NCBI RefSeq assembly: GCF_023101665.1
Contig: NZ_CP082161.1
Span: 1,426,001-1,490,000 of the forward strand
Length of the DNA: 64,000 nt
Direction: 5' to 3'
Origin: Bradyrhizobium sp. 195
Lineage (GTDB): Bacteria; Pseudomonadota; Alphaproteobacteria; Rhizobiales; Xanthobacteraceae
Shown here: positions 20,453-50,520 of the stretch, in pieces
How the letters are laid out: the number at the start of each line of letters is the position of its first letter
How positions within the stretch are numbered: position 1 is the first letter of the stretch
Made by a program: the position numbers and the translations under genes
Notes under the pieces: model-generated
The model's database searches: none
What the model was told of the DNA's origin: nothing
The model's input: the letters and a program-made list of their open reading frames with translations, nothing else

Positions 20453-21172
20453 TCAGGCCTTTCGGGCGGATTGCCGGGTTCGGCGCAAGCTTTCGCCAGA
20501 GAGATCGAGCCGATGGGCGTTGTGGACGAGGCGATCGAGGACGGCGTCGGCATGCGCGTGCCACTGGTCGACCGTTAGTTGACTGGTAACGAGGGTGGAG
20601 CGGCGGCCGTAGCGATCCTCCAGGATCTCCAGGAGGTCGTGGCGGGCGCCGGCATCGACCAGGCCCCAGTCGTCGAGGATGAGCAGATCGACGCGGCCGA
20701 GCGCGCGCAGCAGGCGCGGGTGGCGGCCATCGCCGCGGGCGAGCGCCAGATCGTCGAACAGACGCGGGATGCGCTGGTAAAGGACAGAGCGATTGTCGCG
20801 GCAGGCCTTTTGGCCGAGCGCCGAGGCAATCCAGCTCTTGCCGACGCCGGCCGGACCGCAGATCAGCAGGTTGGCGTGGTCGTCGATCCAGCGGCCCTCG
20901 ACGAGGCTGGCGAATAGCGCGCGATCGAGACCGCGCGGGGTGCGGTAGTCGACGTCCTCGACACAAGCCTGCTGGCGCAGCTTGGCGTGACGCAGGCGGG
21001 TGGCGAGCCGCTTGTCGTGACGCAGCGAGACTTCGCGTTCGAGCAGAAGCGCGAGCCATTCGGCGTGACCGAGACTCGCGGCCTCGCCAGTGGCCTCGAT
21101 GTCGACAAAAGCTTTGGCCATGCCGTGGAGGCCGAGCGCGTTGAGCCGGTCGAAGGTCGGATGGGTGAGCAA
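20453..21172 (-). CDS. istB: IS21-family helper ATPase IstB
   Basis: A AAA+ ATPase of about 239 residues that assists the IstA transposase. The Walker A motif GPAGVGKSW and the Walker B motif DLLILDDWG are intact. I start it at the TTG at 21172, because the ATG at 21180 next to the ribosome site TTAGGAG is in another frame. The C-terminus NAHRLDLSGESLRRTR is complete. The reading frame stays open far upstream through the istA region by chance. Confidence 0.85.
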   Translation of the reverse strand: MLTHPTFDRLNALGLHGMAKAFVDIEATGEAASLGHAEWLALLLEREVSLRHDKRLATRLRHAKLRQQACVEDVDYRTPRGLDRALFASLVEGRWIDDHANLLICGPAGVGKSWIASALGQKACRDNRSVLYQRIPRLFDDLALARGDGRHPRLLRALGRVDLLILDDWGLVDAGARHDLLEILEDRYGRRSTLVTSQLTVDQWHAHADAVLDRLVHNAHRLDLSGESLRRTRQSARKA

Positions 21173-29383: not shown

Positions 29384-29970
29384 CAACAAGGTTTGAGAAC
29401 GCCCACAGGACCGTTCTTCGCGAGGTTCTTTATCGGTATCATCCTTGGTTTGGTCGCCGAGTTTGCGTTGATGGGGCCGTCGACAAGGCCGGTGATATCG
29501 TTTTTCGCTGCACGCTGGACGGGTCGCAAGCAGATCGTTGGATTGAAGTACCGGCATGGATGTTCGACCGGACGGTACGCCCTGACCCCGAGCTTTTGAC
29601 AGCTCAGCCGTTTGTCAGCATTGACGCACTTGCAGCGCTTTCTGCGCTTCTCGATCTGGCGTTGAAGGATCGAACGCCATCAGCTGCCCTGCTTTCTGGC
29701 GCACCCAGAGCTTCTCACGACCAGAATCGGGGAGAGACCGATGCCACGACAGACGGCAATGCCAGGGAACGCATACCGACACAATCGACAACCACGGCCG
29801 CAGCAGATGGATCTGTTCGGGAGCGGCCTGCCGAACGGCGCCCTCGGCGCACCCGCATGGCTGGAACTGCCGGCGGAGGCCCGGGCAGCTCTCATGAGCC
29901 TGATGACGCAGTTGATCCTCGATCATGCCGCGACGACAGCGACGCCGCGCGCGAAGGAGGTGGATCATGA
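29384..29970 (+). CDS. DUF5372-like protein of element A
   Basis: An open frame that enters the element from the left flank and has no usual start codon between the element edge and the conserved part. The first ATG of the frame is at 29236, outside the element. The conserved block is [17 protein letters not shown], then [20 protein letters not shown], resembling DUF5372 proteins found beside such recombinases. The remainder of the frame overlaps the next small gene in another frame and ends by overlapping the recombinase ATG (ATGA). The true C-terminus may be shorter. Function unknown; possibly a recombination accessory factor. Confidence 0.55.
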
Positions 29971-29977
29971 TCTCTGA
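29741..29977 (+). CDS. Small protein of element A
   Basis: A 78-residue frame ending 11 bases inside the recombinase gene. The C-terminal half ([20 protein letters not shown]) is predicted helical and resembles the matching half of the small protein in the second element (47847-48074). Conserved position and similarity argue that it is real. Function unknown; a recombinase partner or directionality factor is a guess from position and size. Confidence 0.55.
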
Positions 29978-32036
29978 CAAGGTCAGGCCTCATCATCTGG
30001 AGCGCAAGGCGATTCTTTACGTGCGCCAATCCTCAGCCCATCAAGTATTGCACAATCGCGAGAGCAGCGCGTTACAATACGCCATGTGGGATCGGCTGAC
30101 GGCGCTCGGGTGGTCAGAGATCGAAGTGATCGATGATGATCTCGGCCGTTCAGCTGCCGGCGGCGTCCAACGCGCTGGCTTTGAGCGGATGGTAGCGGAG
30201 GTTTGCCTCGGTAAGGTTGGTGCGGTTTGCGCCCGCGAGGTCTCGCGCTTCGCTCGCAACAGCCGGGACTGGCAGCAACTCATCGAGATGTGCCGCGTGG
30301 TCGATACCGTTCTGGTCGATCAGGAGACCATCTATGCGCCGAGGCACGGCAACGACCGCCTGCTGCTCGGGCTCAAGGGCAGCCTCAACGAGTACGAGCT
30401 GGATCTGTTGCGCCAGCGCTCGCTCTCGGCCCGCCACGAGAAGGCGCGCCGGGGCGAGTTGGTGGTGGCAGCGCCGGTCGGCTTCGTGAAGGCCGGCGAC
30501 CGTTATGAGAAAGATCCGGATCGGCGTGTCCAGGAAGCGATCAAGCTGGTGTTCGACAAGGTCGAGGAACTGGGCAGCGCGCGACAGGCGCTCTGCTGGC
30601 TCCACGAGTACAATCTCGATCTGCCGGTGAAGCAGACCAACGGCGACACGGCCTGGCGGCGACCGAGTTACTCCGCCATCCACCGGATCATTGAGAACCC
30701 GGTCTACGGCGGCGCCTATGCTTATGGTAAGACGGCTGTGGCGGCGGGATACAGCGCCGAGGGCGTGAGCGTGAAGCTCCGCCGCATGGCGCGGAACGAA
30801 TGGCTGGCGCTGAAGCCCAACACCCACGAAGGGTACGTCAGCTGGGAGAGGTTCGAGGCGATCCGCACCATGGTCAGCAGCAACGTTCCCACCGGTCGGC
30901 ATCACGGCGCGCCCAAGCATGGTGACGCGCTGCTGGCCGGTCTGATCCGGTGCAAGCGCTGCGGCCGCAAGCTCACACTCCGGTACTCCGGCATGAAGCA
31001 CCATATCCCGCGCTACAGCTGCAGCCGCGCCTGGATGGACAATGGCGGCCCTCACTGCATCGCCTTCGGCGGATTGCGCGTCGATGATGCAATCGAAGAA
31101 GCACTGCTTGGCGTCGTTGGTCCGGGCGCTATCGCCGCTGCAACCGCGGGCGCCAAGGAAGCCGGGGAACGGCGGGATCAGGTGCGCGATGCTCTCAGTC
31201 GTGATCTCGAAGCGGCGCGCTATGCCGCCGACCGGGCCTTCCGGCAATACGATGCCGCTGACCCCGCGAACCGGCTGGTGGCGAGTGAGCTGGAAGCGCG
31301 CTGGAACAGGGCGCTCGCTCACGCGGTGGAGGTCGAGGGCAAGATCGCTATGCATGATGCGGCGACGCCCGCCCCCATTGCTGATCCAGCTTCGCTCGGC
31401 GTTCTGGCATCGAACCTCAAAACGGTCTGGGATGCGCCGACGACGGATGCTCGCCTCAAGAAGCGCATTGTGCGCACCCTCATCCATGAGGTCGTGGCCG
31501 ATATCCACGACGCGGCCTCCGAGATCGTTCTCATCGTCCACTGGGTGGGTGGCGCCCACAGCGAGTTGCGCTTGCCCAAGCGCCGGCGCGGACAGCGCAA
31601 CAGCACCTCTGCCGATATCATCCAAGCCGTGCGTCAACTGGTGCTGATCGCCAGCGATGACCTGATTGCCGGCATCCTCAACCGCAACGGCCTCAAGACC
31701 GGCAACGGCAATCGCTGGACCCGCGAGCGCGTCACATCAATGCGCTCGAACTACCACATCGCGGTGTTCAAGCCCGCCGAGGACGGAACCGAACCCTGGC
31801 TCAACCTTGGCAACGCCGCAAAGCTCCTGAAGATCGCGCCCAAGACGCTTCGGCTGGCCGCTGAAGCCGGCGAGATCGATGCCATCCATCCTCTGTCGGA
31901 TGGTCCGTGGATCTTCGCCCGCGCCGCTCTCACAATGTCCGCTGCCAAATCCATCACCGAACGGGCACGGCTGAACCCCAAATACCCCACGGGATCGCAT
32001 CCCGATCAGCAAAGCCTCTTCACTTCAACAACATAG
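29967..32036 (+). CDS. Large serine recombinase of element A
   Basis: A 689-residue site-specific recombinase. The N-terminal catalytic domain begins LYVRQSS, with the nucleophilic serine at position 22 or 23, and contains [20 protein letters not shown] recombinase domain follows (about 165-330). A zinc-ribbon (CKRCGRKL then [13 protein letters not shown]) sits near residue 330. A coiled-coil region (about 390-470) and a C-terminal helix-turn-helix-like part complete it. The start is the ATG at 29967, preceded by AAGGAGG with ideal spacing; earlier ATG codons give an arginine-rich leader with no support. It presumably integrated the element into the surrounding IS3 transposase gene. Confidence 0.92.
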
Positions 32037-36998: not shown

Positions 36999-37392
36999 GA
37001 TCTCTTTCTCGTTCGCAACTCACATTTTAACGCTGCATCAACGTCCGTGCCTTGCTGACTCTATTCGACCGTTGTGGCTGTTGTTTACATATTTGTATTG
37101 CCCGCGCACCTATCTTTCCTTGTAGGCTGACATCGGGCGCCAGCAGAAGGCGATCATTGAGATGGCGCGGATCATAGACGCCATCCTCGTCGACGATCAG
37201 TTTTCCGACGAGCCCGCAGAACTCCAGGAGCGTATGCCAAACCTTGCCGTTGCGGGCCAGCTAAGCGGCCTCAATCGAGAGCACAGCGCAACTCGTCCTT
37301 CGCAGATAGGGGCAAGTAGCTTCGCCACTCAACTCTGCGGGTTGTGCGTGTTCTTTCCACAAGAGGTCTGTCTTCTCTCTCCACAGGAGCTT
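36999..37392. other. Upstream region of the CitE-like gene, cut by an IS3 element
   Basis: About 390 bases. The promoter of the minus-strand lyase gene should be here. The heptamer TTTACAT at 37084 also occurs in the upstream region of the paralogue (52077). A frame at 37162-37395 (IIDAILVDDQFSDEPAEL) is unidentified and runs into the IS end. Confidence 0.4.
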
Positions 37393-46838: not shown

Positions 46839-47166
46839 TGCTGATTCCGACGATCTCGCCCGGGTTTACCATTCCGATTTGATGTCGCCGGGGGCGCGAG
46901 GCGTTCTGGCTGTCTAGTTTCTGGCATCGGTAAAGCCGCGTGGTCAATCTTTGAATCGCGGCTCGGCGGACTTGTTTTTCTGCTGCTTCTGCTGTGGGCA
47001 TGTGGGCAACGCTCTTGCGTTGTCCAAGCGCAGCGGCATGTCCACAGCGCCACGGGCTCAGTCCTTTCGGCTGGGTTTACGGGTTCGCCGCAGGCTTTCC
47101 CCGTTGAGGTCAATCAGGTGGGCGTTGTGGACCAGGCAATCGAGGACGGCGTCGGCATAGGTGGGG
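46839..47166 (-). mobile_element. IS21-family element (second copy type): 3' end and istB C-terminal part
   Basis: Begins TGCTGATTCCGACGA, a variant of the end seen at 20192. On the minus strand it encodes the istB tail (YADAVLDCLVHNAHLIDLN). The istB gene stops at 47166 where element B begins, and its upstream part resumes at 50168. The element cut the aconitase-like gene at 46838. Confidence 0.8.
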
Positions 47167-47212
47167 TCGCCGAACACGACAGAGTACCCCTATTCTTGAG
47201 CGGGTCGTGTCT

Positions 47213-47527
47213 ATGGCGCGACAATCAGGATGAGAGCGGCGCGTCAATCAAGATGAGACAAAGCGGCCGAGTCAGGAGATAATTGACGCTGGCCGCCGGC
47301 TTGGCAAGCGTTGATTGACGCGTTGATTGACGCTGCGCGACAATCAAGAGGCGCTGCCAGCGTCAATCACCGCTTTGTCGAGCTCGTTTGGAGTGGCGTG
47401 CACGGGTGGCCGTCCTGGACCGCGCCTTCGATCGAGAGCAACTCTTCGACGGTAGCTCTCGACATTCATCTCGAGGATCGTTGCGTGGTGGACGAGGCGA
47501 TCGACGGCCGCCAGCGTCATTGCCTGA
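47213..47527 (-). mobile_element. Remnant of a third IS21 element: end repeats and istB C-terminal part
   Basis: After the first 46-base repeat comes a region with repeats of GCGTCAATCAAGATGAGA type, as in IS21 ends. The minus strand then encodes an istB tail of a different subtype (FGDQAMTLAAVDRLVHHATILEMN). It ends at TCGCCGA (47528), the same site relative to the protein (after the FG/IG pair) as in the other istB. Confidence 0.75.
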
Positions 47528-47567
47528 TCGCCGAACACGACAGAGTACCCCTATTCTTGAGCGGGTC

Positions 47568-48055
47568 GTGTCTCACGTCACGATCACCGACCCGCATCAT
47601 TTCCTGTTGGGCACCGGCTTGAGGTGCTGAAGGAGCGGTCGGGGCGCGGTCCCGCCTACGTCGTTGTCGCGCTGCCGGACGGACGGCCGCGGGCGATTCG
47701 GATCGCGTCGACGGATCTTGGCGAGACGCCTATCACTTCCCGCCCGAACGCCGCCGATCTGCCGCGCATCAGTGCACGTACGCTGATCCCATTGATGCAA
47801 CATTTGAGCGCGAGTCTGAGCCTTCTCGACGAGAAGGTGATTCGCGATGACCCACCGACCGCTTCCAGGTCGCGTTGCGTATCGACCACTGCCGACGTCG
47901 GCAAATCCACCCGGCCGCCCGACGGCCGACATTCCGCGCCTGTGGCCGAATCTGTCGACCGCGACGCAAACCCAGATCGCTCAAATCCTCGCCACGCTGC
48001 TGCGGCGAATGCAAGCGGTTCCCGGCACGCCCGGAAGGGGACTGAGCCGTGCTGA
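47568..48055 (+). pseudogene. DUF5372-like frame of element B, frameshifted
   Basis: Starts at a GTG (47568) inside the end repeat with VTITDPHHFLLG, then shifts near 47615 to RLEVLKERSGRGPAYVVVALPDG and RPRAIRIASTDL. The latter frame stays open until it overlaps the recombinase start, just as in element A. Function unknown. Confidence 0.55.
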
Positions 48056-48074
48056 TCAGCTTGAACGTCGCTGA
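47847..48074 (+). CDS. Small protein of element B
   Basis: A 75-residue frame with LSTATQTQIAQILATLLRRM near its C-terminus, the counterpart of the small helical protein of element A. It overlaps the recombinase start by 26 bases. Its phase relative to both neighbouring frames is the same as in element A. Confidence 0.55.
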   Translation: MTHRPLPGRVAYRPLPTSANPPGRPTADIPRLWPNLSTATQTQIAQILATLLRRMQAVPGTPGRGLSRADQLERR

Positions 48075-50150
48075 CGAGCGGCTCACGACTGCGCACCGAG
48101 CTAAGTTGGCCTATGTCTACGTGCGGCAGTCATCCGTGAACCAGGTGCGCCACCACCAGGAGAGCACGCAGCTGCAGTACCGCCTCGTCGATCGTGCCAT
48201 CGGTCTGGGCTGGCCGCCTGAACGTGTCCAGGTCATTGATGAGGATCTGGGCAAATCCGGTGCTGGCGGTGTGGATCGTCATGGTTTCCAGAAGCTCATT
48301 GCCGAGATCGGCCTTGGCAACGCCGGTCTTGTGGTGAGCCTCGACGCTTCGCGCTTGGCCCGCAATAATCGGGACTGGCATCAGCTGCTCGAACTGTGCT
48401 CGGTGTTCGGCGTGCTCATTGCGGATGGCGAGCGGCTTTACGATCCGCGCGCCTACCACGACCGCCTGTTGTTGGGCTTGTCCGGCATCATGAGCGAGGC
48501 GGAGTTGCATCAACTTCGGATGCGCCTTCACCAAGGGGAACGCCAGAAGGCAACGCGGGGCGAACTGCGGCTGCCCCTGCCAGCCGGGCTCGCCTATGAT
48601 CGAGCGGGCACAATTATTCTCAATCCCGATGAGGAGGTGCAGGCCCGTCTTCATCTCGTGTTTGCCAAATTCCAGGAACTGCAAAGCGCTCGCCGTGTGA
48701 TGCGGTACTTGGACAGAAACGGATTGTCCTTGCCGGTTCGACCGCTGCTTGGACCATCTCCACATGAGATCGCCTGGCGTGCGCCAGATAGTGCACGCGT
48801 CCTTAGTATCCTTCAAAATCCGGCCTATGCTGGTGCGTATGTTTATGGCCGCCGGCAAAAGGATCCGAGCCGATGCCGGCCGGGATCGCTGACGGGAACG
48901 GTCAAGGTGGCGATCGCGGATTGGGCGGTTTGCCTCCACGCCGCTCATCCAGGCTATATCAGCTGGGAGGAGTTCATGGCCAACCAGGGGCGACTGGCAG
49001 ATAACGTCTTCCGCTATGAGGCAGGACACTCTGGCGTACCGCGCAAGGGGGCAGCCCTGTTACAAGGGATTGCGATCTGCGGCCGTTGCGGACGGCACAT
49101 GAGCATGCGCTACACGGGCCCGAATGCCGACTATCCGGTCTATTGCTGCCGCTCGGATCGGGACCAGCAAGGCAATGCACTGTGTCAGGAAGTCCGGGCC
49201 TTGGCGGTTGACGCGCTGGTCGAGCGGGTGGTCCTCGATGCCCTGTGCCGGATCAGATTGAGATCGCACTCGCGGCGGCGGGCCAACTGGAGCAGGAGAG
49301 CCGTCAGCTCGAGCGCCAATGGGCGCTTCGCGTGGAGCGCGCCCGCTACGAGGCAGAGCGCGCTCGGCGTCAGTATGACGCCGTAGAGCCCGAGAACCGT
49401 CTTGTGGCGCGCTCACTCGAGCGGGCTTGGGAAGAGAAGCTGCGTGTCGTCGAGGCGGTCGAGCAGCAGCATGCGCGTTGGCGAGCGCAAGAGCCGCTTC
49501 TGATTGGCCCGGCGGAACGCGCAGGGCTACAAGCGCTCGGCGAGAACCTGCCGCGGATTTGGAACGCGGCCACCACGTCGGCAGCCGATCGCAAGCGCAT
49601 TCTGCGATTTGTCATCCGGAAAGTCGTTCTTGATCAGAAGCGGACCCGAGGTCAGGTGTGGCTCAAGATCGTCTGGCAGACCGGCGCAACCAGCGAGCAT
49701 CACGTGCAACGGCGCGTTCACACCTACCGCGATTACATCGACATTGATCGGTTGCGGCGACAGATCGTCGAGTTGAATGCTGAACACAAAATGGATGGCG
49801 AGATCGCGGCAATACTCAATCAGGAAGGCTTCGTCGCGGCCCGAGGCTGCGCCTTCAAAGGCGAGAACGTCTGGGTGTTGCGTACCCGCTGGGGCATTCC
49901 CACCATCAAAATCAACGGCGTGGACAAGAATCCGATGCGCTGGCCCGACGGTAGCTTCTCGATTCAGGGCGCTGCAGCCGAGCTTGGCGTCACCCCGCAA
50001 ACGGTGTTCGATTATCTCGCGCGCGGATTGCTGGCAGGCCGTCAGTTAGCCAAAGGCCAGCCATGGCAGATCGAGCTCTCAGACGAACAAATCAGTCGGC
50101 TGCGCAATCGGATACGACGTACCAAGCGTTCAAAGAAGGAGGCATCATGA
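48049..50150 (+). pseudogene. Large serine recombinase of element B, one frameshift
   Basis: Same architecture as the element A recombinase: catalytic block VYVRQSSVNQVRHHQES, then SLDASRLARNNRDWHQLLEL, recombinase domain, and zinc ribbon (CGRCGRHMSMRY; CCRSDRDQQGNALC). The frame is lost near 49245 (after DALC) and resumes one base off at PDQIEIALAAAGQLEQE. It then continues through the coiled coil to a lysine-rich C-terminus at 50150. The start is a GTG at 48049 or a TTG at 48061. One indel makes it inactive unless it is a sequencing error. Confidence 0.88.
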
Positions 50151-50160
50151 AGTCATCGGC

Positions 50161-50520
50161 TCGCCGATCAGCGCGTGCCATTGATCGACCAGGAGCTGGC
50201 TGGTGACGATGGTGGAGCGGCGGCCGTAGCGGTCCTCCAGGATATCCAGGAGGTCGTGGCGGGCCGCGGCGTCGAGCGGCTCGAGGCCCCAGTCGTCGAG
50301 GATGAGGAGATCGATGCGACCGAGCGCGCACAGGAGGCGGGGGTGGCGGCCGTCGCTGCGCGCCAAAGCCAGATCGCTGAACAGCCGTGGGACGCGCTGG
50401 TAGAGCACCGAGCGATTGTCGCGGCAGGCCTTGTTGCCGAGAGGAGGCGAGCCAGCTCTTGCCAACGCCGGAGGGCCCGCGGATCAGCAGGTTGGCGTAG
50501 TTGTCGATCGTTCGAGTTGG
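50161..50520 (-). pseudogene. IS21 istB N-terminal part, truncated
   Basis: Minus strand reads NYANLLIRGPSGVGKSWLAS (Walker A), a frameshift near 50455, then NKACRDNRSVLYQRVPRL and DLLILDDWG (Walker B). It ends with VDQWHALIGEP at the element B junction. The first roughly 100 codons of istB and all of istA are missing, so the IS21 copy was truncated near 50520. Confidence 0.82.

Follow-up and report, generated by a model that had tools for sequence, protein, structure and literature searches.

What has interrupted two different istB genes at seemingly the same codon, and is that codon the target, are the questions raised by this locus in the window (the whole 64-kb stretch of DNA analysed). 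The interruption of a first gene, istB-1, at 47166/50168 (..HALIGEP), claimed in an earlier sequence-only reading, was borne out by the reading frames and by the PF01695 profile. The minus-strand frame 50145-50465 is an IstB piece ending ..LLVDQWHALIGEP at 50168; the N-side part of istB-1 (50161-50465, minus strand; E 4.7e-24, profile positions 112-213) ends ..QWHALIGEP at the junction, and its own frame is broken further upstream. From 47166 downwards the C-part of istB-1 was recognised by eye and by profile match as TYADAVLDCLVHNAH.. (C-terminal part 47076-47168, minus strand, PF01695 positions 199-235; TYADAVLDCLVHNAHLIDLNGESLRR, by eye). A second istB subtype is represented from 47527 downwards by its C-part only (profile-matched stretch 47443-47529, minus strand, PF01695 positions 200-233; translation ..QAMTLAAVDRLVHHATILEMNVESYRR..). 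The mobile element occupies 47528-50160 on the plus strand, 2633 bases with one copy of the core TC, which is found at 47528-47529 and again at 50161-50162; its right edge adjoins the N-side part of istB-1 and its left edge the C-part of the second subtype. The observation in the window is therefore confirmed as real. The second gene had been described as an FGDQAM subtype cut at the equivalent codon, and its C-part does begin there, but the 'FG' is element sequence: only TC (GA in istB sense) is common to target and element, so these residues are supplied by the element, and an intact relative of the subtype reads IFPDQAM.

The motif TCGCCGA was indeed found at 47167, 47528 and 50161. It is common by itself, with 36 matches in the 64-kb window, a count attained in 3 of 100 shuffles, for an expectation of 23.9, and the evidence lies in the reading frames. 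Moreover, the GCCGA following TC belongs to the element at 47169 and 47530 and to istB at 50163, and the idea that TCGCCGA is the target or a target duplication is refuted, the exchange being limited to two bases, GA (TC on the plus strand). In the direction of istB, ..GA/GCCGATGACTTCATGATGCC is found at the N junction and ..CTGTCGTGTTCGGC/GA.. at the C junction; since the bases before GA on the N side and after GA on the C side vary with the istB subtype, GA is the exchanged core.

Two genes were recognised within 47528-50160, a small ORF and one for a large serine recombinase; no phage genes were seen in the element, and no istA or istB of its own was recognised in this interval, which argues against membership of IS21. 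The recombinase (48049-50150, plus strand), delimited by Pfam and by comparison with 18 other copies, has Resolvase, Recombinase and Zn_ribbon_recom domains (E 6.7e-17, 8.4e-11 and 1.1e-08, all above cut-off), as expected of a large serine recombinase. All three lie within 48049-49386, a one-base deletion follows the Zn ribbon, and the rest is read in 49245-50150; the window gene is thus frame-broken, and open-frame relatives exist. At E 0.1, neither half of the window recombinase matched DUF4368, a domain present in 63% of a TndX-like multi-targeting clade of large serine recombinases (LSRs) according to the text of PMC10083194; this speaks against that clade. Among the recombinases of three relatives, all were below the XisF cut-off of 375 bits (NF041201; L080 65.6, L069 98.8 and L070 84.5 bits), and the NCBIfam IS607 transposase (cut-off 110) did not match the 715-aa L080 recombinase at E 0.01 and scored 21.7 bits with that of L069. 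The small ORF (47568-47860, plus strand) carries a one-base deletion in the window copy and its twin, as seen by alignment with the 18 other copies; its product has about 97 aa in relatives. The L080 version of this protein matched no Pfam or NCBIfam family, and a structural model (pLDDT 83, pTM 0.49) with a weak SH3-barrel likeness (best E 0.018) weakly suggests an SH3-like fold. In three distant relatives (L294, L297, L310), a protein encoded upstream carries the PGAP name DUF5372. An RNA guide of the IS110 kind was considered and set aside; in copies read by eye, the small ORF starts at most about 60 bases from one edge, and the opposite edge contains the end of the recombinase.

A genome search found the left end of the element three times, twice in the window and once at C1:1514602. 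The latter belongs to a second copy (L004), 41 kb away, which is identical to the window element base for base over its whole length, with flanks that diverge at once. The gene interrupted by L004, again at this codon, is of a third istB subtype (..EWGEVFGEP / ..GDPVVATALLD..). The two copies share both one-base deletions, in the small ORF and in the recombinase, which are absent from the 18 other aligned copies; it follows that either the broken element was moved by the enzyme of another copy, or gene conversion overwrote one of the two.

To see how far the pattern extends, named genomes were scanned, keeping the best 80 of 91 relatives, which gave 79 loci; the closest recombinases among these were from Bradyrhizobium. 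We analysed the 75 loci whose recombinase is at least about 58% identical and excluded four distant ones (L144, L145, L149, L152). Most istB matches stop at the insertion codon, and so did a profile built from all of them; a three-sequence full-length profile was used instead. By the boundaries of this profile, istB ends at the same codon in 59 of the 75 loci from the best 80 of 91 relatives, at profile positions 209-219 on the N side and 203-213 on the C side. Both istB halves are present in 32 loci, the C side only in 18 and the N side only in 9, and several one-sided loci stop at a contig edge, e.g. Rhizobium altiplani contigs among L094-L102. The hosts are Bradyrhizobium, Mesorhizobium, Rhizobium, Agrobacterium, Hoeflea, Azospirillum, Acetobacteraceae-type strains and one burkholderial strain (Azohydromonas). 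The distance between the istB pieces is 2.55-2.63 kb in 33 loci. Three M. sophorae copies (L089-L091), identical in their attP arms, occupy three istB genes; in L106, one of the 59, the codon is right and the next bases are not the element's own end. Site-specific targeting of istB, as proposed at the outset, is upheld by the third subtype in the same genome and by this recurrence at one codon across many istB subtypes, and the suggested check, whether istB genes with such recombinases break at the same codon, comes out positive for these loci.

The pattern is missing in 16 of the 75 loci, three of them with shifted istB positions (L097, L139, L147) and 13 without an istB piece ending at the site. 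Among the latter, an istB stub was detected in L110 and L146 (tblastn) and in L140 (by eye). The Caldimonas copy L120, whose core is GA, is inserted in a DDE_Tnp_1 transposase, and the degenerate B. manausense copy L128 lies at the start of a gene, also with core GA; this gene had no Pfam match and is likely, by eye, a universal-stress-protein gene. L132 (Microvirga) adjoins a transposase-like piece read as rve-type, and its relative L124, with the same rve-like piece at its edge, probably also lies beside such a transposase. These Microvirga relatives appear to have changed target, perhaps with a different core dinucleotide. The remaining loci (L080, L116, L134, L136, L138, L150) are truncated, tandem, rearranged or without an assignable site. 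Uncut istB genes occur nearby in L124, L132 and L136. Copies outside istB, named beforehand, for sites lacking TCGCCGA, as the observation that would speak against targeting, do therefore exist (L120, L132, L128 and probably L124), but istB remains the target in most loci; the enzyme thus reads DNA, and istB supplies its site most often. Two further arrangements were seen: in L122, a metagenome-assembled genome named Dormibacteraeota that is perhaps contamination, two istB C-parts face each other at the flanks, and L139 is flanked by two istB N-parts. Judging from their layout, both would be traces of recombination between inverted copies.

From the junctions 37 target sites were reconstructed, 35 of them unique, all with A at +1 and T at -5; G at 0 is found in all unique sites but L115, which was wrongly cut by the extraction script. 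The constancy of GA is partly by construction because the search patterns contain GA, which does not hold for T at -5. When the target halves are joined they give IstB codons in 27 of 28 loci read by eye (e.g. GEWPTVFGDAKMTTA, SQWHDVIAEPTVADA, GEWGRIFPDQAMTLA), the exception being the mis-cut L115. Across the unique sites and joined frames there is no duplication beyond the two-base core, as is characteristic of large serine recombinases. The comparison of attB sites across subtypes, called for in the sequence-only reading, thus yields a GA core in a loose context, in which T stands at -5 and CC is frequent at +3/+4. Uncut istB sites from the same genome, relatives and two plasmid copies (18 unique) have GA in 15 cases and other bases in three. 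Three loci (L088, L099, L105) show AA at one junction; as AA also occurs here in an intact istB (L282), mismatched cores may be tolerated. The joined ends of the element (attP) mimic the target: they are nearly palindromic around GA/TC and imitate istB codons on both sides of the core.

Among the loci with both halves, istB and the recombinase gene run in opposite directions in 22 and in the same direction in 10. Read in the direction of the gene, attP is TCGGC-TC-GCCGA in the 'opposite' kind and TTCGGT-GA-ACC in the 'same' kind, both equally far from the end of the recombinase in the copies compared. In a quick tree, which includes a Walker A element as row L051_282, nine of the ten 'same' rows form one clade, L118 is placed elsewhere and the 'opposite' L107 falls inside the clade. 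L107 and L137 are sister rows (SH-aLRT 99) whose arms are common almost base for base (CATTGGT..ACCAAGCATCGCAGACTGCC vs. CATTGGT..GCCAAGCATCGCAGACTGCC), with cores TC and GA, respectively, and opposite directions of insertion, a correlation in which core and orientation change together. The sites of serine integrases synapse either way, and exchange is efficient only with parallel central dinucleotides, a rule for which the text of PMC3783163 cites Ghosh 2003 and Smith 2004; a swapped core with opposite direction agrees with the rule as stated there.

We consider it very probable that the interrupting agent is a minimal integrative element with its own kind of large serine recombinase, specialised on istB of IS21, and hence apparently a parasite specialised in other transposons. 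The element would pass through a circular form, in which the centre of attP imitates the istB codons F-G-[D/E]-P and is nearly palindromic around the two-base core. The recombinase, whose activity in integration is predicted from its domains and junctions, would join attP to the matching istB codons of an IS21 and cut at the GA that opens an Asp or Glu codon, with no loss or duplication except the core. The direction of insertion would be set by GA or TC in the core relative to the recombinase gene. Being multicopy and mobile, istB offers a site that is both abundant and travelling; the IS21 hit would presumably be inactivated. Comparison of the loci documents, at the level of sequence, one codon hit in diverse subtypes, clean empty sites, the core and the switch of orientation.

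A recombinase of weak specificity could instead use any TCGG.GA-like site, istB being merely the commonest one, without adaptation. The short target constraint and the GA core kept outside istB in L120 and L128 favour this view. However, TCGCCGA is frequent in the window and yet 59 of the 75 loci are in istB, and attP copies istB codons on both sides of the core, so that we regard it as unlikely; its difference from specialisation on istB is one of degree.

The history of the window itself bears on a second alternative, in which one rearrangement of a single insertion, and not two insertions, made the three TCGCCGA copies. A left-end remnant of an earlier element copy lies at 47167-47211 (plus strand; core TC and 43 bases) and has the same sequence as 47528-47572. 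The claim that a 46-base end is present twice in direct orientation holds as to position and direction (plus strand, 47167 and 47528), but the first copy has only 45 element bases, since the second IS21 starts at 47212. The right end of this IS21, up to the cut in its istB, occupies 47212-47529 and is 87.8% identical over 47212-47530 to an intact IS21 on a B. guangzhouense plasmid. In two intact IS21 on Bradyrhizobium plasmids (L292, L293), the common homology runs from or adjoins TATGGCGCGACAATC, corresponding to 47212, and beyond the element junction, 47529/47530, the window is no longer matched. The proposed sequence of events (insertion into istB-1, arrival of the second IS21 in the element, a second insertion into the istB of that IS21, deletion) fits all these boundaries including 47212, with the last step, a deletion between the two direct copies, as the part that we infer. 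The identity of the remnant with the full copy would suit a single rearrangement; the stretch between them, on the other hand, belongs to a separate IS21 end, which has a boundary of its own at 47212 and is itself cut at the same codon, and the second istB subtype of the window is cut identically in other genomes of the genus (L049, L129), which makes this alternative improbable. That IS21 captured the element a single time and inherited it since, the common break in the 59 loci going back to one ancestral insertion, is hardly credible given the identical element in different istB subtypes of one genome (unless gene conversion carried it there entire), the identical attP arms in three istB genes of M. 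sophorae, the occurrence of both insertion directions and the existence of an uncut istB of the window's second subtype. Elsewhere in the window (20468-21145, minus strand), an otherwise readable istB (L158) is without the insertion-site codons (..DQWHAHADAVLDRL.. vs. ..DQWHLLIGDPTYADAVLDRL..), perhaps by imprecise loss of an insertion or by escape from the element.

Specialisation on istB may be one case of a wider habit. In nine loci with L069-like recombinases, istB pieces end at profile positions 105-110, the Walker A codons, with both halves close by in L051, L064, L069, L229, L230 and L231 and, in L228, L239 and L240, a single half or a second one that lies far off or is ragged. Both halves of an IS110 transposase surround L232, L233 and L246, tyrosine-recombinase pieces are found at L234 and L235 (one half seen), and other branches have pieces of IS66 TnpC, IS66 TnpB, IS3 orfB or IS481/IS3-like orfB at one or both edges, with one half seen for the IS3-type genes; Pfam families of the target pieces were checked for seven seed pieces. 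For several further loci (e.g. L063, L067, L257-L260, L263) no target was found. Among 17 plasmid loci (14 chosen for coverage from 40 spread rows, plus three others), a piece of a transposition gene is at the edge in 12, as a raw count. The pieces belong to istA (L294, L296, L297), IS66 (L299, L300, L302, L303, L307), IS3 (L305), IS5-type (L308), DDE_5/IS701 (L309) and rve (L310) genes. Both halves are present in L296, L297, L302, L308 and L309, L300 and L310 may lie beside the gene rather than inside, and no target was found in L295, L298, L301, L304 and L306. L308 (IS5-type) and L309 (IS701-type) break at RW..E with core GA, the Glu being presumably catalytic. The idea that GA always falls on a catalytic acidic codon agrees with the acidic codon of istB described above, L308, L309 and perhaps L120, but the cores of istA (L296) and of the Walker A site in istB could not be placed, and the idea was set aside. 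The window holds two relatives of its own, a recombinase element at 29916-32033 (41% identical), which has a 99% twin at C1:1419684 (L070) and belongs to a group adjoining IS3-type orfB (rve_3) pieces, and a remnant of another related recombinase at 37135-37287 (51% over 51 residues).

It is fairly likely, then, that the element represents one branch of a whole superfamily with serine recombinases, whose insertion sites are the most conserved codons in transposition genes of other mobile elements, a claim weaker than that for istB. The candidate sites of its branches would be the D/E codon and Walker A of istB, istA beside RDK.(K/R)VE, RW..E of IS5- and IS701-type transposases, IS66 tnpB and tnpC, IS3 orfB, IS110 at VPGVG and a tyrosine recombinase. 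Under the same reading, a GA core would escape synonymous drift because every Asp and Glu codon begins with these two bases.

A site-specific integrase with its niche in the transposition machinery of other elements would have a target that is multicopy, conserved and self-spreading. IS21 may be curbed in turn, as IstB loses roughly its last 30-35 residues through the cut. The natural core swaps with opposite insertion offer test material for orientation choice and target change of serine integrases, and the elements provide a collection of enzymes whose attB sites are related without being the same. They would also account for many 'recombinase family protein' genes adjoining broken transposition genes in rhizobia. 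No paper on serine recombinases in istB or transposase genes was found by title or abstract among the matches listed in the open-licence literature, subscription papers lying outside this search.

The closest known systems are the large serine integrases of the phiC31, Bxb1 and A118 type, which share the order Resolvase-Recombinase-Zn ribbon, the two-base core, the clean insertion and, according to the text of PMC3783163, orientation by the central dinucleotide. Unlike these, the window element has 2.6 kb, with a target in another transposon and an attP that imitates attB. Durrant et al. 2022 describe cases in which diverse LSRs share a single conserved gene site, in prolyl isomerase or Mg chelatase; the targets named in the text of PMC10083194 are host genes, and istB does not occur in its main text. 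RmInt1 in ISRm2011-2 is likewise a rhizobial mobile element with its natural target inside an insertion sequence and, as described in the text of PMC4496777, differs in being a group II intron, a retroelement without serine recombinase. XisF and CcrABC are the best NCBIfam matches of the three superfamily recombinases scanned, XisF at 65-99 bits against its far higher cut-off and Ccr far below cut-off. IS4321/IS5075 of the IS110 family are insertion sequences specialised on another transposon, residing in Tn21-type ends; they use a DEDD enzyme and target terminal repeats, not a gene. Inteins, finally, are seated on active-site codons, much as the proposed superfamily would be on the conserved codons of transposition genes.
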